Assembly (NCBI GenBank): GCA_002709305.1
Contig: PAQM01000005.1
Coordinates: 47,627-111,626, forward strand
Length of the DNA: 64,000 nucleotides
Source: Crocinitomicaceae bacterium
Lineage (GTDB): Bacteria; Bacteroidota; Bacteroidia; Flavobacteriales_D; Crocinitomicaceae
Reading direction: 5' to 3'
The position numbers and the translations under genes were made by a program. Below are positions 1 through 12,380 of the stretch, one piece after another (the stretch's first letter is position 1; every line of letters starts with the position of its first letter). The notes below the pieces were generated by a model. That model made no database searches and was not told the DNA's origin. It saw only the letters and a list, made by a program, of their open reading frames with translations.

Positions 1-530
1 AATGCTGAAACTGCAGCTGATTCTTTTATTTTCCCCCATGATAATAATAATATTATTGGACTTAAGATAATTCCACCACCAATACCTATTATTCCAGATA
101 AAAAACCAATTAAACCACCAATTATTATTCCTAAAGGAATATTTATAGGTTTTGTCTTATTTTCATTTTTAGATTTACTTATTATTCTAACAATTGAAAA
201 TAAAAGAATAATTCCAAGTGTAATTTTGTAAACAGTAGCATCAATAATTAATGTTCCACCTATAAAAGAAAGGGGTATTGAACTTATTGAAAATATTAAG
301 AATAATTTTTTGTTGAAATAACCACTTTTCCAAAAGTGATAAAAAGCAATACCAGAAACAAATAGATTTAATATTATTCCTGTTGGCCTCATCATTTCTG
401 GTGAGAAATTGAAAATAGCCATTAATGCAAGGTATCCACTTGCACCTCCATGTCCAATTGAAGAATACATAAATGAAATGAATAGAAGTGATAATATAAA
501 TATCCAAATTGTATTTTCTGTTAATAACAT
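1..530 (-). CDS. TauE/SafE-family permease, C-terminus cut by window edge
   Basis: Reading the minus strand from the ATG at 530 gives an open frame to the window edge. It is very hydrophobic: an N-terminal helix, then a loop with SSIGHGGASGY, and after about 120 residues a second copy of the loop type, GIIGIGGGI. Paired glycine-rich loops of this kind are typical of the TauE/SafE (sulfite exporter-like) membrane family. The start lies 10 bases after the moaA stop, and a GGAGG formed by the last moaA codons sits at ribosome-binding distance, so it is probably the last or next-to-last gene of the molybdenum-cofactor operon. The substrate (sulfite, sulfonate or another anion) cannot be read from the sequence. 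Confidence 0.8.
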   Translation of the reverse strand, partial: MLLTENTIWIFILSLLFISFMYSSIGHGGASGYLALMAIFNFSPEMMRPTGIILNLFVSGIAFYHFWKSGYFNKKLFLIFSISSIPLSFIGGTLIIDATVYKITLGIILLFSIVRIISKSKNENKTKPINIPLGIIIGGLIGFLSGIIGIGGGIILSPIILLLSWGKIKESAAVSA

Positions 531-540
531 TTATATAGAT

Positions 541-1551
541 TTATCCTCCAATAGTTATCATTGGTCTGTTTTTTATAGTTTTTTCAGTTAATTTTTCAAA
601 AGAAATATTTCCCCCACGCTCATAGTGTTTGGAGTCAATTGACTTTCGTATTATTTCCTCTAAATCTCTTTTTTGTCTTAATGCTGATAGTAGGTTAGTT
701 TCATTTTGAGAAAATAAACAATTTTTAATTTTTCCATCAGCTGTTAATCGAATACGATTACATGAATCACAGAATGGGTTAGTTATAGTGCTAATTATAC
801 CAAAACTACCTTTGCTACCTTTGAGTTTGAAATTACGTGATGTGTAGTTTGTATTATCATTGATTTTTATATATCCTTCACTGCCGTAATTTTTTTCAAC
901 TTTTCTTAGTATTTCGTTATAAGATATTTTCTTATTCCACCCCCAATTATTTCCATCAAAAGGCATGAATTCAATAAATCTTATGTTGATTTTTGTTTGA
1001 ATTGTCCAATTTATGAAATCACAGATTTCATCATCATTGATACCTTTTATTAATACAACATTTACTTTAATGTTGAAATTATTTTTAATTAATAATTTAA
1101 TATTAGACACTACTCTTTGGAAATAATTTCTCTTAGATATTTTGTTAAATCTTTCTTCTTTGAGAGAGTCTAAGCTTACATTTATTGATTTGACTTTTGC
1201 TTTTTTTAATATAGGGATGAATTGATTTATGTTAACAGCATTAGTAGTTATTGATAACTCAATGGGTAATTTACTGAGTTCAATAATTATTTTGTCAACA
1301 TTTTTTTTTATTAATGGTTCTCCGCCTGTTAATCTGATTTTTGTCACTCCAAGATTGACGAAAACTTTAGCTATATCGATTACTTCTTCGGATGTCATAT
1401 ATTTCGATTTCTCTTTCAATATAACTCCATTTTCAGGCATACAGTAGGAGCAACGTAAGTTGCATCTTTCTGTCAATGAAATTCTAAGATAATTATGTTT
1501 GCGTCCGTATTTATCTATTATGGGTTGATTATTTGATTTTTCATCAATCAT
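541..1551 (-). CDS. moaA: GTP 3',8-cyclase MoaA (radical SAM)
   Basis: Catalyses the first step of molybdenum-cofactor synthesis, GTP to 3',8-cyclo-GTP, using two 4Fe-4S clusters. The radical-SAM triad is Cys30, Cys34 and Cys37 (CNLRCSYC). The second cluster motif appears late as NPFCDSCNRIRL followed by NCLF. The protein ends in the conserved Gly-Gly tail (ITIGG) needed for catalysis. Length (336 aa) is normal. Its ATG overlaps the stop of moaCB (ATGA), showing translational coupling in the Moco operon. Confidence 0.97.
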   Translation of the reverse strand: MIDEKSNNQPIIDKYGRKHNYLRISLTERCNLRCSYCMPENGVILKEKSKYMTSEEVIDIAKVFVNLGVTKIRLTGGEPLIKKNVDKIIIELSKLPIELSITTNAVNINQFIPILKKAKVKSINVSLDSLKEERFNKISKRNYFQRVVSNIKLLIKNNFNIKVNVVLIKGINDDEICDFINWTIQTKINIRFIEFMPFDGNNWGWNKKISYNEILRKVEKNYGSEGYIKINDNTNYTSRNFKLKGSKGSFGIISTITNPFCDSCNRIRLTADGKIKNCLFSQNETNLLSALRQKRDLEEIIRKSIDSKHYERGGNISFEKLTEKTIKNRPMITIGG

Positions 1552-2462
1552 GAATCATGTCTTATACCTTTAAATACTTTGAATATATGAAAAAGAGCAG
1601 GGAATAATGCGTCCATTGATTCGGTTGCCCCTTTTGTAGAGCCAGGTAAGGCAAGAACTAATGTTTTATCTTTTACACCTGCAATACTTCTTGATAGCAT
1701 TGAGTATGGGGTTCTGTCTTGTCCATATTTTCTTGATGCTTCAGATATTCCTGGTATATCTCTATCTAGAAGTGGTTTTATTGCTTCTGGTGTTACATCT
1801 CTTTTAGATAGACCTGTGCCTCCAGTAAAAATAACAAGGTCTGTTTCTTTACTAGTTTGTTTTAATAAGGTGTTTTGAATTATATCAAATTCATCTGGTA
1901 TAATAATATAGTCAATAATATTTACCGAGAATGATTCTAATTTTTCGATAATAGACAGACCTGCTTTGTCTTGTTTTTGACCTTTAGATATGGTATCAGA
2001 ACAAACTATTACAGATGCTTTTATATTTCCTTTGAATACATCTTTGAAGTCAGATTTACCTCCTTTTTTTTCTAGTAATTTGATGTTTTCAATTTCAATT
2101 TCTTTGTCAATTGGTTTTAACATATCATACATTGTAAGAGCAACAATACTAGCCCCATGCATTGCTTCAACTTCTACACCTGTCTTATAAATAGTTTTCA
2201 CTTCAATTGAAATATTGATGTGTAAACCATCAATATCAAAATTAATTTTGGTGTGTTCTATTGGTAATGGGTGACAGTCTGGTATTAATTCTGAAGTTTT
2301 CTTTACGGCTAAAAATCCTGCAGCTTTAGACATTTCAAATACATTTCCCTTTGGAACTTTGTCTTTTAAAATTGAATTGATAGTTTCCTGTTTACTAACT
2401 TTTATTCTCGCTTGGGCAATTGCTTTCCTTAGCGTTGATGATTTGTGAGTTATATCAATCAT
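1548..2462 (-). CDS. moaCB: Bifunctional MoaC-MoaB/MogA molybdopterin protein
   Basis: A 304-residue two-domain fusion. Residues 1 to about 143 are MoaC (cyclic pyranopterin monophosphate synthase), with the CHPLP motif at 63-67, VEVEAMHGAS near 96-105 and the LLEKKGGKS segment near 129-137. Residues about 148-304 are a MoaB/MogA-type molybdopterin adenylyltransferase domain, with the binding motif FTGGTGLSKRDVTPEA and a later LPGSTKG loop. MoaC converts the MoaA product to cPMP; MogA-type domains adenylylate molybdopterin before molybdate insertion by MoeA. The gene sits 3 bases after moaE and overlaps moaA. MoaCB fusions are known, so the call is firm; whether the second domain is fully active is not shown. 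Confidence 0.93.
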   Translation of the reverse strand: MIDITHKSSTLRKAIAQARIKVSKQETINSILKDKVPKGNVFEMSKAAGFLAVKKTSELIPDCHPLPIEHTKINFDIDGLHINISIEVKTIYKTGVEVEAMHGASIVALTMYDMLKPIDKEIEIENIKLLEKKGGKSDFKDVFKGNIKASVIVCSDTISKGQKQDKAGLSIIEKLESFSVNIIDYIIIPDEFDIIQNTLLKQTSKETDLVIFTGGTGLSKRDVTPEAIKPLLDRDIPGISEASRKYGQDRTPYSMLSRSIAGVKDKTLVLALPGSTKGATESMDALFPALFHIFKVFKGIRHDS

Positions 2463-2465
2463 TAT

Positions 2466-2894
2466 TTACTTATTTACTTTCCATTGATGGGAATTATCAT
2501 TAAATATTTCTTTTCCAAAAATAGGGGCTTGTGATTTAATTTCTTCCACTAAAAATTCTATAGCTTTCTGAACTTCTTTACGGTGTTTTGAGGATACAAA
2601 TACAAATAAACATATTTCACCAATTTTAACTTTACCTATGCTATGGTATATATGCATACAGGTTAGATCGAATTTATTGAATGTCTTTTCTCTGATGTCA
2701 TGGAATATTTTATTTGCCATTTCTTCATATGCTGAATATTCTATTGCAATGACTTCTTTTTCATTTATAATATCATTTCTTACTTGTCCAAGAAATATTT
2801 GATGAGCACCAATATTAGTTTTCTTTTGATGATGGGAAATTGAGTTGGCAATAAAGTCCGGTTTAATTGAGCCTTCTTTGAAACAGTTCTTCAT
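2466..2894 (-). CDS. moaE: Molybdopterin synthase catalytic subunit MoaE
   Basis: Large subunit of molybdopterin synthase, which transfers two sulfurs from MoaD thiocarboxylate to cPMP. The family signature is visible: FLGQVRN (Arg39), IEYSAYEEMA (51-60), YHSIGKVKIGE, and the C-terminal active-site stretch IKSQAPIFGKE with Lys120 and Lys128. Length of 142 aa is usual. It lies between moaCB and the mobA-moaD fusion, so both synthase subunits are encoded side by side. Confidence 0.95.
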   Translation of the reverse strand: MKNCFKEGSIKPDFIANSISHHQKKTNIGAHQIFLGQVRNDIINEKEVIAIEYSAYEEMANKIFHDIREKTFNKFDLTCMHIYHSIGKVKIGEICLFVFVSSKHRKEVQKAIEFLVEEIKSQAPIFGKEIFNDNSHQWKVNK

Positions 2895-2905
2895 GTTTTA
2901 TATAT

Positions 2906-3691
2906 TTATCCTCCAGCGAATGGAGGTAGTATGGATATTTCGTTTGGTTTTTCTTTCTTGTTTATTTCTTCTCTTAATTCTTGATTAATTGCAATGGCAT
3001 ATGTCATATTTTGTAGTATTGGCCATTTTTTATCAAAGTATTTTCTTAGGTTTAATTTTTCGTTATTTGGTAATAATATTTTCATTTCAGTCTGTTTCAT
3101 GCATTCTGAAATCATACCATATAATTTTATTTTAACAATTGGATAAAGATCATTTTTTGAATTAATATTATGGAAGAGAGTATTATCAAATTTTTTTGTT
3201 AAATCTAAAATACAACATTTTAATTCTTTTACTAAATCAATGATTTTCAGTTTTTTATTTTTTATTGATTCAAGTAATTGATTAACTATATTCCTGTCAT
3301 ATATTCCAATTAATGGGTGAATGTTTTTGCCGTGTTTAGTAATTACGATATTATTTAATTTTGAATTTTTGAGGATATAATTAATGATATTTTTATTGAT
3401 ATATGGGATATCGCAACTGAGGATTAAAATTTTGGATGTTTGGGTGTTTTCAAAGCCTGCATGAATACCTCCTAGTGGTCCAACATCTTTATATATATCT
3501 TCGAAAACTGGAATTCCAAAACATTCATATTTTTTATCATTTGATATTATGATACTATCTAGATCTAGTTCTTTTACCGTATCAATGATATGTTTTATCA
3601 TTGGTTTCCCATTTAGATTCATCAATCCTTTGTCTTCACCCATTCTTGAGCTTTTTCCTCCGGCTAATATTACAATAGTTATATCATTCAT
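2906..3691 (-). CDS. mobA: MobA-MoaD fusion: molybdenum cofactor guanylyltransferase with sulfur-carrier tail
   Basis: The N-terminal part (about 1-180) is a nucleotidyltransferase of the MobA family: LAGGKSSRMGEDKG at 9-22, GKPMI, DVGPLGGIHAGF, and SCDIPYI as the metal-binding aspartate region. From about residue 185 the chain continues into a ubiquitin-like MoaD domain that begins VKIKLYGMISE and ends PPFAGG. The terminal Gly-Gly is the residue pair that is adenylylated and thiocarboxylated in MoaD. No frame break separates the two parts. MobA makes the guanylated cofactor and MoaD supplies sulfur, so the fusion joins a late and a middle step. No separate moaD is present in the operon, so this tail is the likely partner of the adjacent MoaE. 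Confidence 0.85.
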   Translation of the reverse strand: MNDITIVILAGGKSSRMGEDKGLMNLNGKPMIKHIIDTVKELDLDSIIISNDKKYECFGIPVFEDIYKDVGPLGGIHAGFENTQTSKILILSCDIPYINKNIINYILKNSKLNNIVITKHGKNIHPLIGIYDRNIVNQLLESIKNKKLKIIDLVKELKCCILDLTKKFDNTLFHNINSKNDLYPIVKIKLYGMISECMKQTEMKILLPNNEKLNLRKYFDKKWPILQNMTYAIAINQELREEINKKEKPNEISILPPFAGG

Positions 3692-3696
3692 CGTAA

Positions 3697-4047
3697 TTAT
3701 GAGAAATCAAGTGTTTTAATTTTGGATTCTAGGTATTTATTTGTGCTAATTTTTATTTCATTAAATAATTTTATAGCCTTTAATCCTTCTGTTGTTAATT
3801 TTGATCCACCACCTCCAGTACCTCCAATTGTTCTGATAACCATGGGTTTTTTACTTATCTTATTCATTGAATCAACCATATTCCATGCCTTTCTGTATGA
3901 CATTTTCATCGATTTAGCTGCTTTTGATATAGATCTATGTTTATTGATTTCATTTAACAGTTCTATTCTTCCTTCACCAAGAAAGCTTCTATTTTCCGAT
4001 GATATCCAGATTCTGTTGTGAATTTTAAATAATGTAGTTGATTTCAT
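3697..4047 (-). CDS. ModE-type winged-helix regulator (DNA-binding domain only)
   Basis: A 116-residue protein matching the N-terminal DNA-binding domain of ModE: EGRIELLNEI, SISKAAKSMKMSYRKAWNM (helix-turn-helix) and the glycine-rich wing GGTGGGGSKLT. The C-terminal molybdate-binding Mop/TOBE domains of full ModE are absent, so molybdate sensing is either indirect or lost. It is 5 bases upstream of mobA-moaD and directly downstream of a ModE-like operator, which points to autoregulation of the Moco genes. Confidence 0.85.
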   Translation of the reverse strand: MKSTTLFKIHNRIWISSENRSFLGEGRIELLNEINKHRSISKAAKSMKMSYRKAWNMVDSMNKISKKPMVIRTIGGTGGGGSKLTTEGLKAIKLFNEIKISTNKYLESKIKTLDFS

Positions 4048-4050
4048 TTC

Positions 4051-4074
4051 CGTTATACTTTAGCGTATATAACG
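4051..4074 (-). promoter_or_regulatory. Candidate ModE-box operator
   Basis: A perfect 7-bp inverted repeat, CGTTATA-N10-TATAACG, ends 3 bases before the regulator start. From memory, enterobacterial ModE boxes have CGnTATA half-sites with the same N10 separation. It contains a nested shorter dyad, AGCGT-N5-ACGCT. It lies in the only sizeable gap (67 bases) between moeA and the downstream Moco genes. Function is inferred from sequence and position. Confidence 0.65.
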
Positions 4075-4114
4075 CTAATATAAGAATATGATTTTAATGA
4101 TAAATAGAAAATGA

Positions 4115-5293
4115 TTATTGAGGTAGTATTAGAGCTTCAACTTTATCTCCCGCTTTCCATTTCTCTCTGTTTTCTTCAAAAATAATTAAACAGTTTCCAT
4201 TGATGAACGGACTTAACATTGCTGAACTTTGTTTTTCAAGTATAGAAACACCATCATTTATAGCTAGACCTTTTAGGAAGTGGGTCATTTTTATGTTTTT
4301 TTTGTAGCTAGATTGTAGCGTTAACACTCGTTTTTCTAGTTGATAATCGGATCTACCTGACATAAAATTTAGTGCAGGTAGAACATAACTATAAAAGCAG
4401 GTTAGGGCAGAGGCAGGATTTCCTGGCAATGCAAAAATTAATTTTTCTTTTTTATATCCAAAAAACATAGGTTTTCCTGGTTTTTGTTTTATTTTATAAA
4501 AGCCCTCATTGACTCCTATTTCTGCAAGTATTTCTTTCACAAAATCATATTCTCCTACGGATATTCCACCTGTTATAAGTATAACATCATTGTCATTTAT
4601 TGCATTTTGTATTTTGTTTTTAGTATTCTCATAATTGTCTTCAACTTTTTCAATACTTATTGAATTAAAATTTGAAGTATTTAATGCTGCTTTTAATGTA
4701 AATGTGTTTGATTCATAAATAGAACCTTCAGTTAGTTTGGTTCCAGGGGATATTAACTCACTGCCTGTTGCTATAATTTTGACTTTTGGTTTTGAATAGA
4801 CACTTAGTTCTGCTTTTCCTAAAGTTGCAGCAAATCCAATTGTGCCAGTATTTATATAGGTTCCTTTTTTTATTGCTTTTTGGCCTATTTTTATTTGCTC
4901 CCCTTTAAATCTTATATTATCAAATTTGGAAATAGAATCTTTTATGTTGATAGTATTTTCTTTTGTAATATCTGTTATTTCTTGTTTTACGACACAATCT
5001 GCTCCAGATGGAACCTTTGCACCTGTAAATATTCTAGCACATTCACCAGGGTGTAATTTTAAGGAGCTGTTTTGACCGGCTTTTATTTTTCCTATTAATT
5101 TATATTCTGAGTTTTTATGCATTGCGATAGCATATCCATCCATGGCCGATTGATCAAATGGTGGTATATTAATTTTAGAAATAACATCTTCTGCTAATGA
5201 GTAGCCTAATGAATTCGGAAGATCAATTTTTTTTATTGATAATTTAATTGATTTTGATTCAATAATAGAAATAGCTTTTTTTACAGATATCAT
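4115..5293 (-). CDS. moeA: Molybdopterin molybdenumtransferase MoeA
   Basis: Inserts molybdate into adenylylated molybdopterin. Visible family motifs: PPFDQSAMDGYAI at 44-56, IIATGSELISPG near 172-183, ITGGISVGEYDF near 240, and the LPGNPASALTCF segment near 290. Length of 392 aa is standard, and the C-terminal domain IV is complete. It starts 12 bases downstream of the last pigment-cluster gene on the same strand, so it may be read through from the pigment operon, while the ModE-like gene after it has its own candidate operator. Confidence 0.95.
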   Translation of the reverse strand: MISVKKAISIIESKSIKLSIKKIDLPNSLGYSLAEDVISKINIPPFDQSAMDGYAIAMHKNSEYKLIGKIKAGQNSSLKLHPGECARIFTGAKVPSGADCVVKQEITDITKENTINIKDSISKFDNIRFKGEQIKIGQKAIKKGTYINTGTIGFAATLGKAELSVYSKPKVKIIATGSELISPGTKLTEGSIYESNTFTLKAALNTSNFNSISIEKVEDNYENTKNKIQNAINDNDVILITGGISVGEYDFVKEILAEIGVNEGFYKIKQKPGKPMFFGYKKEKLIFALPGNPASALTCFYSYVLPALNFMSGRSDYQLEKRVLTLQSSYKKNIKMTHFLKGLAINDGVSILEKQSSAMLSPFINGNCLIIFEENREKWKAGDKVEALILPQ

Positions 5294-5305
5294 TTTGAAT
5301 ATTTG

Positions 5306-6352
5306 TTATTTGCTTAATAAAATAAACCCATGTCTAACGGTATCGAAATGATTATATATTAAAATGTTTTTAGGTGTATTTTTATTATTAATTCTTCTTG
5401 AAATATGTTTTAATATTTTTTTTTCACCATTTATAATATGGCTAGATAACCAAGTTGCAAAGGCTGAGCAGGTACGATAATCTCCTATTAAATTTTTAAA
5501 AGTAAATGAGTTGGATTTTTTGAATATTTTATTTTCTATGTATTCATACCAATGGTTATGATTGATGTCACCATTATAACCAAGCATAATACTATCAATA
5601 TCAGTTGATTTTAAATTATTTCTTTCTAGCATTTCAGTTAAACATTCTCTTAAATCTTCAATTGATGGGTATGTTATTTGAGCAACATCTTTAATTTGAG
5701 CATAGTAATTATTAGATTCATTTTCAACTACAAATAGAGCAGCACCTTCTCCGCATATAGTACCAGGGGTATTTGATTCTAGTAATTTGCTGTCTTTAAT
5801 TGTTTCTTTCTTGAATTTATTAGATAATGAATCAATATTATAATTATACTCTGATATTTCTTCTATACCACCAATAAGTAGTTTTTTATTGTTGCCTTCA
5901 TTAAATAATAATATCCCATCAAGTATAGCATTTTCAAATGATGTTCCACCATTTGTGTATGTTATATTATATCCTCTATTTTTTCCAATTAATGCTAGTT
6001 GACCAGCAATAGCATTTGGAGTGCTTTGAACAAAATTGGTTGGTGTGAGGGTTCCCTCATTGTATTCGATTATTTGGTTTAAGAAACGAATACAATCCTC
6101 TAATCCTCCATTAGCTGTGCCAATAATTATCCCATCCAACTCACTGTTTTTGTTGATTAATGGTGTGCCTGTGCCAATACCAATCCTTACTGCTTTTCCC
6201 ATTCTACGAAGTAGGTTTCTAGGTATTAATTCAGTATAATCAGGCTCTATGGCATTAAAAACAGTGCTCTCGTATGATTTTTTATCACCTAATAAAAAAT
6301 TTTCATTGTAGGTTAGTTGGGGTGATATTGCACTAAGGTCTGTAATAAACAT
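5306..6352 (-). CDS. Ketosynthase-like chain-length factor 1 (no active-site Cys)
   Basis: Thiolase-fold ketosynthase homologue of 348 residues lying directly after an active ketosynthase (TAATG-type junction at 6352). The segments PTNFVQSTPNAIAGQLAL and ICGEGAALFVVE are ketosynthase-like. The nucleophile region reads TYTNGGTSFENAI, where alignment with KS1 puts Gly in place of the catalytic Cys, and the two catalytic histidine motifs are missing. This is the pattern of a chain-length factor that pairs with a ketosynthase in type II PKS and aryl-polyene systems. Likely partner: the product of 6352-7539. Confidence 0.82.
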   Translation of the reverse strand: MFITDLSAISPQLTYNENFLLGDKKSYESTVFNAIEPDYTELIPRNLLRRMGKAVRIGIGTGTPLINKNSELDGIIIGTANGGLEDCIRFLNQIIEYNEGTLTPTNFVQSTPNAIAGQLALIGKNRGYNITYTNGGTSFENAILDGILLFNEGNNKKLLIGGIEEISEYNYNIDSLSNKFKKETIKDSKLLESNTPGTICGEGAALFVVENESNNYYAQIKDVAQITYPSIEDLRECLTEMLERNNLKSTDIDSIMLGYNGDINHNHWYEYIENKIFKKSNSFTFKNLIGDYRTCSAFATWLSSHIINGEKKILKHISRRINNKNTPKNILIYNHFDTVRHGFILLSK

Positions 6353-7539
6353 TATTTTATTTTTGAAAATATAATTGATGTACAGTTTCCCCCAAATCCA
6401 AAAGAGTTTGACATAACTGTATCTATAGTTATGTTAGTTTTTTTCTTTATAGGAGGGTTGTTGAATTTTGTGATTGGGTTGAGGCAGTTTAAGCTAGGGT
6501 ATAATTCATTATTTTTCATTGATAATATTGAAAAAATTGATTCAATAGCTCCGGCTGCTGCAAGTGTATGTCCTGTATAAGATTTGGTTGAATTGTATGG
6601 TGGTATTTTAGAGAATATTTTGTTGAAAGCGAATAGCTCCGTTATATCATTATTAGGTGTACCCGTGCCGTGAGCATTTATGTAATCAATATTTAGTTTT
6701 TTTATTCCTGTTGATTCTATAGCTCTTTGCATTGCTAGAGTTGGTCCAAATGCTTCATTCGAAGTTGCTGAAGGATGAAATGCATCATTTGAATTACCGT
6801 AACCGATAACCTCAGCTAGAGGCTTTTTATTTTTCGCTATATCTGATCGTTCAAGTACTAGGTATCCGGAACCCTCTCCTAAGGTTAAGCCATCACGATT
6901 TTCATCAAATGGTTTGCAAGGTTCTTTAGAGAGTATCATCAAAGAGTTAAATCCATTAACAGAGAATTTTGATAGAGAATCAGATCCACCAACAATAACT
7001 CTATCTAGTCTCCCCGCTTTAATAAGTCTACAGCCTAACATAATTGCATTTGCTGAGGATGAGCATGCGGTATTTATAGTTGATGTGAATCCTTTTATAT
7101 TAAAGTCTTTAATTAATTGTAGAGTGTGCTCACCACCTCCATATGTTTTGATGAATTCAGATGGCTCACCTTTCATATTTGCATCTGCATACAATTCGTC
7201 GGTATTACACATTCCACCGACTGTACTTGAAGATATAAAACCTGTACGATATGATTCTATTTCTGATTTAGTTAATTTGGAGTGATTGATTGCTTCTTTA
7301 AAAGCCATAGTTGCTAGTAAAGCAGTTCTGCAATAACCTTTCTTTGTTATGTGTAGTATTTTTTTTAATTCTGAATCACTTAATCTTACTTCACCAAAAT
7401 TTAAAGAATTAGTATATCTTGATTTAAAATTTTTGGCTTTATCTATTCCGGATTTTTGAAGTTTGAGTTGAGTTTCATTAGCCGCAACATTATTGCCTAT
7501 TGCCGAAACAATACCAATTCCAGTTACAACTACTTTCAT
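6352..7539 (-). CDS. Beta-ketoacyl-ACP synthase (KS1, FabF-like)
   Basis: Complete FabF-type condensing enzyme of 395 residues. Nucleophile Cys159 lies in NTACSSSANAI; catalytic histidines lie in NAHGTGTPNND and SYTGHTLAAAG; the glycine-rich NSFGFGGNC occurs near the C-terminus. It probably elongates a polyene or acyl chain on the adjacent ACP (7542-7805) with the CLF encoded immediately after it. Confidence 0.93.
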   Translation of the reverse strand: MKVVVTGIGIVSAIGNNVAANETQLKLQKSGIDKAKNFKSRYTNSLNFGEVRLSDSELKKILHITKKGYCRTALLATMAFKEAINHSKLTKSEIESYRTGFISSSTVGGMCNTDELYADANMKGEPSEFIKTYGGGEHTLQLIKDFNIKGFTSTINTACSSSANAIMLGCRLIKAGRLDRVIVGGSDSLSKFSVNGFNSLMILSKEPCKPFDENRDGLTLGEGSGYLVLERSDIAKNKKPLAEVIGYGNSNDAFHPSATSNEAFGPTLAMQRAIESTGIKKLNIDYINAHGTGTPNNDITELFAFNKIFSKIPPYNSTKSYTGHTLAAAGAIESIFSILSMKNNELYPSLNCLNPITKFNNPPIKKKTNITIDTVMSNSFGFGGNCTSIIFSKIK

Positions 7540-7541
7540 TT

Positions 7542-7805
7542 TTATTTATTTTCTAGAATGTAATCAACAATCGTGTTTACATCAACAAGAATTGCTCTTC
7601 CTTCTGTTGGATTATTAATTTTTAGTCCATATTCTCTATCTAAAAGCACTATTAGCTCAACAGAATCTATTGAATCAAGTCCTAGGTCTGGTCCAAATAA
7701 TGGTTGATCATCTTCAATTTCTTCTGGTTTAATATCCAATAAGTTTAGATATTCAACTATATGTTTTTTTAATTCTACTTTAATTTCTTCTCTTGTTTTA
7801 CCCAT
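7542..7805 (-). CDS. Acyl carrier protein 1
   Basis: An 87-residue ACP with the phosphopantetheine attachment serine in DLGLDSIDSVEL. Highly acidic and helical as expected. It forms a KS/CLF/ACP triad with the two following genes and is 1 base from the ABC permease gene upstream. It would need activation by a PPTase such as that encoded at 36068-36631. Confidence 0.93.
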   Translation of the reverse strand: MGKTREEIKVELKKHIVEYLNLLDIKPEEIEDDQPLFGPDLGLDSIDSVELIVLLDREYGLKINNPTEGRAILVDVNTIVDYILENK

Positions 7806-7806
7806 T

Positions 7807-9084
7807 TCAAATGTAATTTTGAGTTTTTAATTTCACGAATGTAAAGAATTGTGATACTAAAATAAATAATATTAGGAAAATAATGGTAGGAAATAGTAAA
7901 TACCAATCTCCGCCTTTTAAGAACAATGCATAAAATCCTTCTAAAGACCAATGCATAGGTGATATTTTTCCAATTTGCTGAAGGTAATAAGGCATTACAA
8001 AGCTTGGAACCCAAATTCCTCCAATTGCGGCTAATATTATTACTGTTACTGCGCCGAAACCACTAGCTTGCTCTCTAGTTTTGCTATATGTACCCACCAT
8101 TACTGCAAAGCTTATTGCTGCTAGTGCAGATAGAGATGATATAATAATTAGACCAAATATGTTTGATGGTAATGATAGTTTAGGTAATTCAATTAGTGGG
8201 AAAATATACTTTCCAATTAAGAAGATGATCGTTAATTGTGTTAGTGCTACAAAAAAGTAGACAAACATTTTACTCAGAATTACAAGAGAAAAGCTTGAGG
8301 GAGTTGTCTGGAGTCTAATAAAGCTACCGCTTGTTCTTTCTTTAACAATGTTCCCACCTAATGATATAACCATAAAAAACATTGCAAATATAGACCATGC
8401 TGGAACATTATGTTGTGTGGAATTTGGTATTATTTCTTTACTTGATGTATTTGCAGATACCTCTTTGATTTCTAGTTTTTTATAATTTAATTTATTTTTT
8501 ATTTCATGGACGTTTTTTTCTATATCCATTTGTGCATATAAGCTTTGAATCATCAATCTATTTTCTAATAGATTTAAATATGAATATATACTGCTTACCA
8601 TTGAAAATCTAAAACTTTCCTGTACTACAGGATCATAGTATAATGAAATGTTAGATAAGTTATTATCATTATTATTTGAAGTATTTTCACTTATACCAAA
8701 TTCTTCAAGCATATTTGAACTTATATAATTTGCTTGATCTTTGAGGTTTTTCGAAAATTCTTTAGGTATTTCAATACTTAATAAATGATTATTATTTAGT
8801 AAGTCTTCTTTTATTTTATTTGGCCTAATCTTTTCTTGTTTATTTATTTTAAAAGAACCTGAACTTTTTAATAAAGAAATTAATGTATCACCTAAATTAC
8901 CTTTATCGTTATTTATAATATTAATTTCTATTTTATTTTCATTCACTAATTTGAATGTACTATCTTGTACAATTGTAATGATAAAAACAAGAAGTATAGG
9001 CATAACATACATTAGTAGCAGTCCTATTTTGTCGTAAATAAGGATTAAAAATTCTTTTTTTATGCTTGCTAATAATTTTATCAT
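7807..9084 (-). CDS. ABC-2 type transporter permease
   Basis: 425-residue membrane protein with one N-terminal helix (about 17-40), a long extracytoplasmic region to about 225 and five hydrophobic segments in the C-terminal half, the topology of ABC-2 exporters. The start overlaps the stop of the ATPase gene (TAATG at 9084-9086), so the two proteins form one transporter. In a flexirubin cluster it probably exports or translocates a pigment intermediate; substrate inferred from context only. Confidence 0.9.
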   Translation of the reverse strand: MIKLLASIKKEFLILIYDKIGLLLMYVMPILLVFIITIVQDSTFKLVNENKIEINIINNDKGNLGDTLISLLKSSGSFKINKQEKIRPNKIKEDLLNNNHLLSIEIPKEFSKNLKDQANYISSNMLEEFGISENTSNNNDNNLSNISLYYDPVVQESFRFSMVSSIYSYLNLLENRLMIQSLYAQMDIEKNVHEIKNKLNYKKLEIKEVSANTSSKEIIPNSTQHNVPAWSIFAMFFMVISLGGNIVKERTSGSFIRLQTTPSSFSLVILSKMFVYFFVALTQLTIIFLIGKYIFPLIELPKLSLPSNIFGLIIISSLSALAAISFAVMVGTYSKTREQASGFGAVTVIILAAIGGIWVPSFVMPYYLQQIGKISPMHWSLEGFYALFLKGGDWYLLFPTIIFLILFILVSQFFTFVKLKTQNYI

Positions 9085-9827
9085 TAATCTCTATATTCAA
9101 TTCCTGTTAATTTTAGGAAAAGTGATTCCAAAGAATTTTCGTTATATTTTTTTAATAAATTTTCTAATTTATTAAATGCAATTAAATTTCCTTGATCAAT
9201 TAAAAGTATTTGATTACAAAATTCTTGACCTTCATTCATATGATGTGATGTATAAATGATAGTTGTACCTCTAGAATTTAATTCTTCTAGATAATTCATT
9301 ATTGCTTTTTTACTTTGCACATCAATTCCAACTGTAGGTTCATCAAGAAATAATATTTTGGGATTATTAATTATACCAATTGCAAGGTTTATTCTTCTTT
9401 TCATCCCTCCAGAAAATTGTTCAATTTTTTTATGAATGACATGATCTAAACCTAGAATGTTTAATAGCCTATTAATTCTGATTTTTAATTCATTTTTTTT
9501 TATACCGTAAAGCGCACCGAAATACATTAAATTTTGATAAGGAGATAATTCAGGGAAAAATGAAAAATCTTGGGGTACATAGCCAATTTGGTTTAGTATT
9601 TTTCTAAAGTTATACGGTTCTTTTTCTTCGCAATAATAAACTTTACCGGAAGATTTATCTATGATTCCACATAAGATTGATATTAAAGTTGTTTTTCCGG
9701 CACCATTAGGTCCAAAAATTCCAATTTTTTGACCTTTTTTTATGTTGAAAGTAATATTATTAAGACTTAATTTATCAGATTTTGAATATTGCTTAGAAAG
9801 GTTATTAATTTTTATAATAGCTTCCAT
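9084..9827 (-). CDS. ABC transporter ATP-binding protein
   Basis: 247-residue ABC ATPase with Walker A GPNGAGKTT at 39-47, Q-loop region GYVPQDFSFFPELSPYQN, signature FSGGMKRRINLAIGI near 138-152, Walker B ILFLDEPTVG and the switch histidine in YTSHHMNEG. Of the DrrA/multidrug type that pairs with ABC-2 permeases; its partner is encoded directly downstream. Confidence 0.95.
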   Translation of the reverse strand: MEAIIKINNLSKQYSKSDKLSLNNITFNIKKGQKIGIFGPNGAGKTTLISILCGIIDKSSGKVYYCEEKEPYNFRKILNQIGYVPQDFSFFPELSPYQNLMYFGALYGIKKNELKIRINRLLNILGLDHVIHKKIEQFSGGMKRRINLAIGIINNPKILFLDEPTVGIDVQSKKAIMNYLEELNSRGTTIIYTSHHMNEGQEFCNQILLIDQGNLIAFNKLENLLKKYNENSLESLFLKLTGIEYRD

Positions 9828-10838
9828 TTAGTGCAATTTTAATTTATTTAAATCATTTAAGGCTTTTCTTTCAACTGATGCAATTTCATTCATTATATCT
9901 GCAGCATCATTAAAATCTTTTTGAGAAGTAATTCTTCCTTTATATATACCTGCCATTTGAAGAGCGCTATCTCTCCATAAATCCCCAGACTTTGTGAATT
10001 CTTCTGATATTCTAATTATCTTATCATTATTTAATCTTTCTGCAGCTTGCTCTAGGAATGCAGCATATAAAAACCTGAAGCCACCTCCTCCAGTACCAAT
10101 CTCTTCTTGCATTCTTACAATTTGTCCAAGAAATAATCCTGCGTTACGGACACCATGTTTTTCACGCCATTTTCGAATCTTAGATGCTGTATGATTAATT
10201 CCATTTACTCCAGTAAATCTTGCCGGTATATATAACATATCTCGAACATTGTGCTTTATTCCTTTTATAATTCCTTTACGAATTTTTTCATTTGTTATTT
10301 TTTCTGTTTTTTCAGGATAGTATATATGTCCTTTAGGCGCAAGTGCACCTTTTGCAAAACGAACTTTTTCCAATTCATCAACACTAAGGGCAGTAGTATT
10401 TTCCATTACAGGGTCACTAATCAAATAGTTATTACCTTCTTTACCATATACAATTAGATTATGAGCATTAAAGTGAAAACGGTATTCTTTAGGAAAATAC
10501 TTCAAATGAAATACTCCAACTTGACATCCTACAGTAATGCCTTGATTTAATTTTTCATTAAGATAGTTTCTAGCATTATCTTTTGATCTAAATTTTTTAC
10601 GATTGATTTTAATGTTTAATACTTTACAGGTTCTTCTAAATATAGATCCAGGCATAGATCTAAATGAAATAGCAGGGCCACCGTTTACTTTTAAGAAAGG
10701 AATATGAATATAAAATAATCCTGACCCCATACCAAATGCTAGTGGTTCATTTATCCAATCTAAACCTTGTTCTTTTAATAATTTAACTGTTACACCATTT
10801 TCACAATGAGCTGTTTGTATGTGTTTAAATTCTTTCAC
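9828..10838 (-). CDS. BtrH N-terminal domain / DUF4872 protein
   Basis: 336-residue protein starting with a BtrH-like domain: QTAHCENGVTVKLL with a Cys near residue 12, an AFGMGSGLF segment, and NAHNLIVYGKEG with its His followed by ISDPV. That is a cysteine/histidine layout seen in papain-like or acyl-transfer proteins related to BtrH of butirosin synthesis. The C-terminal half (from about 190) is a helical DUF4872-like region. Homologues are regularly found in flexirubin clusters, where an acyl-transfer role is plausible but unproven. It is sandwiched between the ABC ATPase and a small conserved protein with no gap on either side. Confidence 0.8.
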   Translation of the reverse strand: MKEFKHIQTAHCENGVTVKLLKEQGLDWINEPLAFGMGSGLFYIHIPFLKVNGGPAISFRSMPGSIFRRTCKVLNIKINRKKFRSKDNARNYLNEKLNQGITVGCQVGVFHLKYFPKEYRFHFNAHNLIVYGKEGNNYLISDPVMENTTALSVDELEKVRFAKGALAPKGHIYYPEKTEKITNEKIRKGIIKGIKHNVRDMLYIPARFTGVNGINHTASKIRKWREKHGVRNAGLFLGQIVRMQEEIGTGGGGFRFLYAAFLEQAAERLNNDKIIRISEEFTKSGDLWRDSALQMAGIYKGRITSQKDFNDAADIMNEIASVERKALNDLNKLKLH

Positions 10839-11236
10839 TATAAATTAAAATTTTTAAGGTCGTTTAATGAAATTTCAAATACTTCAGCGTAGACTTGTAA
10901 TGTTTTATCATTAAGATTTTTGAAAACATTTGGTTTCATGTGTCGTTTAATTCTCCATTTCGAAAAACCCGTGTATCCTGATAATACAGGCAGATCCATT
11001 AATTTTAATTCAAAGAAATAAAGAATAGGACTAGCTTTACCATTAATGATTTTTTCTTTGGCTTTTTTTATCCGACGTTCAATTTCATCCCATTGATTGT
11101 TCAATGCAGCAGATTTGACTTCCCAACCGGTACTTAAATCAGTTACATATTTACCTTCACTATTTTTAACGTAGCATACTTCTCGGGTGAAATTTTTAAG
11201 GTGACTTTTATCTTGTGGCAGTTCTTCTTTCTTCAT
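10838..11236 (-). CDS. Conserved flexirubin-cluster protein, unknown function
   Basis: 132 residues, soluble, charged, no signal peptide. The C-terminal part (about 85-132) reads like a helix-turn-helix: LSGYTGFSKWRIKRHMKP followed by LSDKTLQ-type and VFEISLNDLKNF helices. I recall similar small proteins at the same place in Flavobacterium flexirubin clusters, but no function. The stop overlaps the start of the BtrH-like gene. It could be a DNA-binding or scaffold protein. Confidence 0.7.
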   Translation of the reverse strand: MKKEELPQDKSHLKNFTREVCYVKNSEGKYVTDLSTGWEVKSAALNNQWDEIERRIKKAKEKIINGKASPILYFFELKLMDLPVLSGYTGFSKWRIKRHMKPNVFKNLNDKTLQVYAEVFEISLNDLKNFNL

Positions 11237-11237
11237 T

Positions 11238-12380
11238 TTAGCAAACAGTTAGCATGCTAAATGCATATGAAAATCTTGAACTTTCAGGAACAGCGAGTAA
11301 AATTTTATCTCCAACTTTTAATTTTCCACTATTAAATAATTCATCAACCATTAGATATATTGAGCCTGCACCAACATTACCTTTTGATTCAAGGTTTGTA
11401 AACCATCTTTCTTTTGGAATATGCATATCTAATTCCTTTAGCATGTTAGCAATTTTATCTTCAAAAAAGTAACTTGACATGTGGGGTAAGAAATAGGTAA
11501 TATCATTTACATCAATTCCTTTGTTTTTAATAGCACCTTCTAATTTTGTGAAACCTAAACGAATGATATTTTCACTTAATAATTTCACATCTTGTTTCAT
11601 GCTTAAAACAGAATGGTCTTGAATTTCTTGAGGTGAATAATCCATATAGCTTTTAAATTCACCATTATCTTCTTTATCTCCTGCTAAATACATGCAAACA
11701 TCAACTTCATTTGCAAATGAGTATGCTTCAATCCAATCTATTTTTAATGATATACCTGAATTATTTTTTTTTGTTGACATTAGAAAAGATCCAGCACCAT
11801 CAGATAGCATCCAACGCAAAAAGTCCTTTTCAAATGCTAGATATTGATTTTTTTCTAACTCTTTCTTTTTTTTGACTTCTATTTCGAATTGTTCAGCTTG
11901 AAGTAGCCTAGATAATCTCTCAGATCCAGAGCAAACAGCAATTTTACTATCATTTAATTTAAGAGACATGAAGGCATATTTGAATGCATGCATGCCTGAG
12001 CAACAAGCTCCAGATGGAGAGGTTACTTCAGCATTTTTTGTTTCTGGTAACCAACCGTGAACCATAACTCCATGAGAAGGGAGAAATTGATCAGGTGTAG
12101 ATGTACCACAACTAATTAAATCAATCTCATTAAGTTTATCAGAATTATTTCCTACTAGTTTTCTTATAGAAAGTGCTGACATTTCAGCATTAGTATGTGT
12201 AGCAGTACCATTTTTATTAATAGCATAAAATCTATTTTTTATTCCGTTACTTCTAAGAACTATACGTTTTGATTTAGATGCTTCTTCGCCTATTAGGCCT
12301 AAAAATTCTTCCATTTCATCATTCGAAATTGAAGAGTTAGGAAGAAAGTGAGCGGTATTGACTATATATACTTCAGGCAT
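11238..12380 (-). CDS. darB: DarB-type ketosynthase III (dialkylresorcinol formation)
   Basis: 380-residue FabH/KAS III-like enzyme. The probable nucleophile is Cys127 in PSGACCSGM; the catalytic His and Asn appear in FLPHMSSYF and SKGNVGAGSIY. DarB enzymes condense two acyl units and cyclise them to a cyclohexanedione that becomes the dialkylresorcinol of flexirubins. DarA is encoded just upstream on the same strand, which supports the assignment over ordinary fatty-acid FabH. Confidence 0.88.
   Translation of the reverse strand: MPEVYIVNTAHFLPNSSISNDEMEEFLGLIGEEASKSKRIVLRSNGIKNRFYAINKNGTATHTNAEMSALSIRKLVGNNSDKLNEIDLISCGTSTPDQFLPSHGVMVHGWLPETKNAEVTSPSGACCSGMHAFKYAFMSLKLNDSKIAVCSGSERLSRLLQAEQFEIEVKKKKELEKNQYLAFEKDFLRWMLSDGAGSFLMSTKKNNSGISLKIDWIEAYSFANEVDVCMYLAGDKEDNGEFKSYMDYSPQEIQDHSVLSMKQDVKLLSENIIRLGFTKLEGAIKNKGIDVNDITYFLPHMSSYFFEDKIANMLKELDMHIPKERWFTNLESKGNVGAGSIYLMVDELFNSGKLKVGDKILLAVPESSRFSYAFSMLTVC

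Follow-up and report, generated by a model that had tools for sequence, protein, structure and literature searches.

The question raised by this locus is how a ModE protein without a molybdate-binding domain could govern the genes of Moco biosynthesis, and to what signal it would respond. The locus lies in a 64,000-nucleotide stretch of DNA from a Crocinitomicaceae bacterium (Bacteroidota), referred to here as the window. We put the probability at roughly 70% that a 24-bp dyad directly before a short modE gene is the operator of ModE(S), and that ModE(S) represses the Moco operon, modE included, probably in response to Moco status. The features concerned are these:

1-530, minus strand: 5' part of a TauE/SafE-family permease gene (tauE) that runs past the window edge (frame in L205; 46% identity to the PF01925 protein of G062)
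541-1551, minus strand: moaA (TIGR02666, 343 bits, cut-off 284)
1548-2462, minus strand: moaC/mogA(moaB) fusion (NF002947, 399.7 bits, cut-off 285)
2466-2894, minus strand: moaE (PF02391)
2906-3691, minus strand: mobA-moaD fusion, 261 aa (NTP_transf_3; MobA models; weak MoaD match)
3697-4047, minus strand: modE(S), 116 aa, winged-helix ModE domain only (TIGR00637, PDB 2ijl/1b9m, AlphaFold2, Foldseek)
4051-4074, no strand assigned: ModE-box-like operator CGTTATA-N10-TATAACG, CGTTATACTTTAGCGTATATAACG (exact dyad and conservation)
4060-4078, no strand assigned: overlapping dyad TTAGCGT-N5-ACGCTAA, read from the sequence and probably incidental
4075-4082, minus strand: putative -7 promoter element TATATTAG (minus-strand letters) abutting the box (conserved columns among 25 loci)
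4115-5293, minus strand: moeA, the upstream neighbour in the same direction (MoeA_N/MoCF/MoeA_C)

The box lies in the 67-bp gap between moeA and modE, both on the minus strand. Its arms are identical at 7 of 7 positions and enclose a spacer of 10 (7+10+7), and 3 nt separate it from the modE start codon (complement of 4045-4047), the distance given in the initial annotation of this DNA. That annotation had also described the half-site and spacing as those of ModE boxes, and it was right on both, judged by conservation in relatives and by the E. coli ModE consensus, ATCGNTATATA-N6-TATATANCGAT, as printed in an excerpt of PMC545781. The spacing is identical to that of the consensus, and the minus strand of the box agrees with it at 14 of the 16 specified positions from CG to CG, or at 15 of 20 with the outer AT/AT included.

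The exact dyad occurs once in the window, as against 0 times in 100 dinucleotide-preserving shuffles, and it is the sole exact match in the draft genome to which the window belongs (2.3 Mb, 29 contigs). Looser versions of the pattern are not enriched: with up to three mismatches the window holds 3 matches versus 3.4 expected, and the genome has 103 versus 246 for the reversed pattern. It is thus the exact site, with its conservation, that carries the case for the box. Could the dyad be a palindrome that arose by chance in AT-rich DNA between genes? The lack of enrichment of the loose pattern would fit, but the shuffles and, decisively, conservation across the family and class refute this idea, and its probability is close to nil. 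Four sites elsewhere in the genome differ from the dyad by two mismatches. The stretches around them score no higher than 11.7 bits with a matrix built from relatives, compared to 23.1 for the true box, and they were not taken further; the genome shows only one strong box. A 24-position sequence model gave E >1 for every match in this genome except the box; with so few positions, such a model does not yield clean lists for a whole genome, and several of its matches outside the known loci fall inside coding sequence. The overlapping dyad TTAGCGT-N5-ACGCTAA, to which the initial annotation made no reference, was rejected as an operator, its right half not being kept in relatives.

The protein belongs to the ModE DNA-binding domain family (NCBIfam TIGR00637, E 2.3e-25), with a score of 88.5 bits that lies below the curated cut-off of 98.5. 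PDB sequence searches with the 116 residues return ModE chains only (2ijl, 1b9m, 1o7l), the best being 2ijl, whose title is putative ModE from Agrobacterium tumefaciens. An AlphaFold2 model based on 27 sequences (pLDDT 89.8) shows one winged-helix domain, and ranks 1-10 of a Foldseek search with this model are all ModE, led by 1b9m, 1b9n, 2ijl and 1o7l. At 116 aa, with HTH_1 as the only Pfam match and no C-terminal Mop/TOBE domains, the protein is not a full-length, molybdate-sensing ModE; it consists of the DNA-binding domain alone, as in the ModE(S) class. Family, structure searches, predicted fold and Pfam all agree with the initial reading of the gene as a ModE winged helix and nothing more. 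The same reading called the protein truncated, which is apt for its length and misleading in implying decay, as the short form is the rule: all 28 loci of the family encode a ModE of 94-122 aa. Among the class-level frames listed, all except three measure 109-170 codons from stop to stop. At one family locus (L025, in G012), modE lacks about 20 residues after a GG motif, leaving 94 aa, and is possibly decayed or misassembled; this shortened frame was excluded from the protein alignment.

On the minus strand, the genes run in the order moeA, box, modE, mobA/moaD fusion, moaE, moaC/mogA fusion, moaA and tauE, and the gene beyond tauE points in the opposite direction. The genes that follow the box would form one transcript. 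Related stretches keep moeA, modE and mobA in this succession and orientation in 13 of 15 cases. MobA and MoaD, which give separate matches in the more distant of these relatives, are apparently fused here; the MoaD match (residues 186-261) is weak, with 27.2 bits for a cut-off of 66. At the other end of the row, the genome record contains ambiguous bases in tauE just outside the window. Upstream of moeA, the minus strand of 5306-12380 encodes two ketoacyl synthases and three products named by eye (one acyl-carrier-like, one an ABC exporter, one synthase-like); the group resembles a gene cluster for a polyketide or a pigment lipid.

As a check, the initial annotation had proposed scanning related genomes for the palindrome before modE-like and moa genes. 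ModE turned up in 27 of the 240 genomes of the family, at 28 loci, and the 24-bp box stands 0-7 nt before modE in 25 of these 28, although the 27 genomes are related and 17 of them belong to one genus; further boxes precede Moco genes. At the sequence level, this conservation supports the autoregulation by a short ModE that had been suggested. Across the 25 loci, the information content is 1.05-2.0 bits per column in the outer six of each arm and stays at 0.71 or below throughout columns -62 to -9. The box matrix was built from these 25 sites, leaving out L015, L022 and L024 (weak or no modE-proximal site), and its leave-one-out scores range from 10.0 to 28.2 bits. In one exceptional genome (G189) the box is found before moeA, upstream of modE. 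In a second (G103), the modE-proximal site is weak (8.3 bits) and 8 nt separate a 21.4-bit box from a hemerythrin-like gene, behind which comes moaA. The third (G062) has no box at modE, which sits behind nitrate-reductase-like genes (named by eye); here a 21.6-bit box occurs 2 nt before tauE, followed by moaD- and moeB-like frames (by eye), moaE and moaC.

Arms that are complementary and lie directly before a start codon could also pair in the leader RNA, as a hairpin or riboswitch. The related loci show no covariation, however: pairing is kept at 82.3% compared to 82.9% in shuffles, with one pair changed on both sides. Nor is there a Moco RNA among the Rfam matches for window positions 1-12000 at E up to 1, and a Moco riboswitch was rejected on this ground. 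We consider a function in RNA exceedingly improbable.

Beyond the family, a box with 2-3 mismatches precedes a modE start in 6 of 13 further named loci (L046-L058) and is missing from the other 7. Three of the 6 are from Nitrospirae and have short frames, and three are from Sulfurimonas and have frames of full-length size; in the three loci titled Nitrospirae, the box stands 3-4 nt before the start codon of the short modE. At the class level, a sample of 395 genomes gave modE matches in 63, of which 61 do not belong to the family. Among the best-scoring 28 loci from these 61 genomes, a box precedes modE or a neighbouring gene in 21: modE in 13 (at least 12.8 bits) and another gene of the locus in 8, namely moeA (2), TauE (4, Pfam-checked, plus L255) and a porin-like gene (1). 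The box of L255 is in the same register as that of L254 and is counted with the TauE loci by register. The other 7 of the best 28 lack a box.

To control for the Moco context, we compared genomes with and without modE. Moco synthesis (moaC/mogA) is present in 62 of the 240 family genomes, including all 27 with modE, such that modE occurs in 27 of 62 Moco-making genomes versus 0 of 178 others (Fisher 8e-19, relatedness ignored). Boxes were counted in 21 stretches (327 kb) from 16 of the 27 modE genomes and in 34 stretches (400 kb) from 33 of the 35 Moco-making genomes without modE, G128 and G130 being left out. At 10 bits or more, we found 23 boxes in the first sample versus 3 in the second, where permuted matrices gave 4.5 and 7.5, respectively. 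The 23 comprise 14 sites used to train the matrix and 9 others, and once training sites are removed the 10-bit threshold no longer sets the samples apart from permuted matrices (9 and 3, versus 4.5 and 7.5). At 15 bits or more, the non-training boxes number 8 in the 327 kb with modE versus 1 in the 400 kb without, as compared to 0.2 and 0.3 for permuted matrices. Two of the three matches in the modE-less sample lie inside moaA or moeA, and the third is 7 nt before tauE in G042; because this genome is 67% complete, a modE may be missing from the assembly.

Just upstream of the box, conservation is seen at columns -7 (A in 19 of the 25 loci), -4 (T in 23) and -2 (A in 19). We take these columns to be the Bacteroidota -7 element (promoter consensus TAnnTTTG). 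The motif TAn(n)TTT[GA] begins at -10 or -8 in 15 of the 25 loci; the window is not one of them, and its element fits TAnnTTTG less well than those of many relatives. With a -7-like element directly before it and the start codon directly behind it, the box would be expected to cover the transcription start. A dimer of ModE(S) is predicted to bind the 24 bp and, once bound, would repress modE along with mobA/moaD, moaE, moaC/mogA, moaA and tauE. Box position is our sole ground for favouring repression over activation. ModE(S) could instead activate the Moco operon, as molybdate-bound ModE activates moa in E. coli according to an excerpt of PMC2408646, but a site downstream of a -7-like element and touching the start codon region would be an unusual place for an activator to bind, and we regard activation as unlikely.

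Boxes in the relatives indicate what else ModE(S) might control. They precede a hemerythrin-like gene and moaA in five genomes (G009, G097, G088, G012 and G103; Pfam checked in G097, G012 and G103), and a weaker site of 15.3 bits holds this position in G022. Boxes are also found before modA in 3 of the 6 genomes that have it (G012, G022, G019) and before a two-repeat MOT1 permease gene in 3 of 5 (G009, G097, G093). No box of at least 11 bits was seen at modA of G147, G122 and G148 or at MOT1 of G103 and G088, the G088 copy being near a contig start with little upstream DNA. DUF2490 genes follow boxes in G012 and G022; ModE-like boxes lie 8-11 nt before such genes at L188:9678 and L191:5778, and in G062 a DUF2490 gene comes after modE (L068:9499-10251). 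In G009, one box precedes a TonB-plug gene and another, at L199:2223, scores 20.5 bits and stands 62 nt ahead of the gene for a formate/nitrite transporter. G088 carries two modE genes; behind the second, a short one preceded by its own strong box, comes the gene for a TonB-dependent receptor (L066:6633-9636), through which molybdate or a chelate might cross the outer membrane.

These boxes bear on whether ModE(S) responds to anything at all. It might be a ligand-free autorepressor that merely holds its own level and that of the Moco operon constant, which would suit a protein without a sensor domain, genomes with no Mop type (27 covered) and the single strong box of the genome studied here. 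Yet the placement of boxes before modA (3/6) and MOT1 (3/5) in relatives looks like regulation by supply, and we consider a constant-level function improbable, if a serious contender. Repression tuned to Moco status remains the reading that we prefer.

The permeases themselves deserve attention. Among the 27 modE genomes, ModA is present in 6, two-repeat MOT1 in 5 and TauE relatives in 15; MOT1 was called two-repeat from frame length and two matches per gene, the remaining ones having longer frames or matching only once. The genome of the window itself yielded no ModA. TauE (15) and ModA or MOT1 (11) co-occur only in G148, and all three are missing from G150 and G126. The Fisher P value for the near-exclusion is 8e-5 with relatedness ignored and 0.12 within the main genus; the Fisher tables, that for modE and Moco synthesis included, were filled by hand from the genome counts, and a fourth (27/0 against 1/33) was set aside. 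A box lies 2-7 nt before a TauE gene in six loci inspected, and the five class genomes with the box-TauE arrangement or register have ModA in 0 of 5, compared to 15 of 61 overall. Six TauE genes away from modE (G132, G125, G139, G131, G142 and the second copy of G062, which adjoins other Moco genes) show no box of at least 9 bits in the stretches fetched, and the same holds for a seventh, in G127, that is truncated by the end of its contig. TauE/SafE (TSUP) permeases are, to our knowledge, not known to carry molybdate, which is a sulfate analogue. An excerpt of PMC11535334 reports sulfate uptake by a TauE-family protein, and our literature search found nothing linking TauE to molybdate among the matches listed. 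Import of molybdate by TauE/SafE permeases is thus offered as a lead only.

What, then, could ModE(S) sense? The classical ModE uses molybdate-binding domains, and chimeric Mop proteins are encoded in modABC clusters of Desulfovibrio with single-domain ModE (PMC545781, in the excerpt available). A separate Mop-type protein might by this token supply ModE(S) with the molybdate signal. Domain PF03459 (TOBE/Mop), however, is absent from all 27 modE genomes, although the same search was positive in 12 of 14 controls. These data make a Mop-type partner unlikely, to the point that this idea is largely refuted and its probability very small. The suggestion that the signal comes by way of another protein is accordingly not supported in its Mop form; a partner of another kind may exist, given one ModE-MobA fusion. 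The alternative offered alongside it in the initial annotation, regulation without direct molybdate sensing, was the better half.

This fusion is encoded by a class relative (G579), in which a single open frame (L253:907-1836, minus strand) joins ModE (TIGR00637, residues 20-114) to MobA (NF001457, 121-305) behind a 25.3-bit box. It is a single case in a draft genome; it fits the Moco-status idea and may point to the sensor. The ModE(S) of Agrobacterium tumefaciens, studied by Hoffmann et al. in 2016, reportedly needs Moco biosynthesis for its activity. By analogy, ModE(S) here would repress when Moco is sufficient and the Moco operon would go down; with the box on Moco genes, such control would be end-product feedback on the operon. 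More speculatively, and with odds that we place well below even, molybdenum homeostasis in Bacteroidia may be run by a ModE that has no sensor of its own and learns of Moco status from a Moco enzyme, with a regulon that includes three interchangeable molybdate importers, ModABC, MOT1 and TauE/SafE (TSUP).

Short ModE proteins and ModE boxes are already known; new are the Bacteroidia setting, the box that touches the start codon and the lead on molybdate import by TauE/SafE. How a ModE without a molybdate domain senses molybdenum status is a question raised in PMC545781 (excerpt). Genomes that have no detectable Mop domain yet keep the box and the protein make it directly testable, the natural ModE-MobA fusion suggests where to seek the sensor, and the regulon provides a lead to so far unassigned molybdate importers, the TauE/SafE permeases, in Bacteroidota. 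In our literature search, nothing on ModE regulation in Bacteroidota appeared among the matches listed, many of which were for the ordinary word 'mode'.

Several known systems can be compared with this one. The Moco riboswitch resembles it in the end-product control proposed for Moco genes (PMC2408646, excerpt), and differs in being RNA, with none found in window positions 1-12000. From what the excerpt of PMC545781 describes, the Desulfovibrio ModE is likewise a single DNA-binding domain with sensing unexplained; its predicted site is CGGTCACG-N14-CGTGACCG, however, whereas here the box is of the E. coli type, and chimeric Mop proteins are present there in contrast to the absence of a Mop/TOBE domain here. 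With E. coli ModE, our protein shares the winged-helix domain and fold as well as the operator type and spacing, and it lacks the two tandem molybdate-binding domains of that protein (same excerpt). The Agrobacterium ModE(S), like ours, has the DNA-binding domain only, and 2ijl, the solved structure of a putative ModE from that species, is our best PDB sequence match and among the best folds. There, modABC is said to be repressed by ModE(S) bound to Mo-boxes, whereas here, in a genome with no ModA found, the box heads modE and the genes of Moco biosynthesis.
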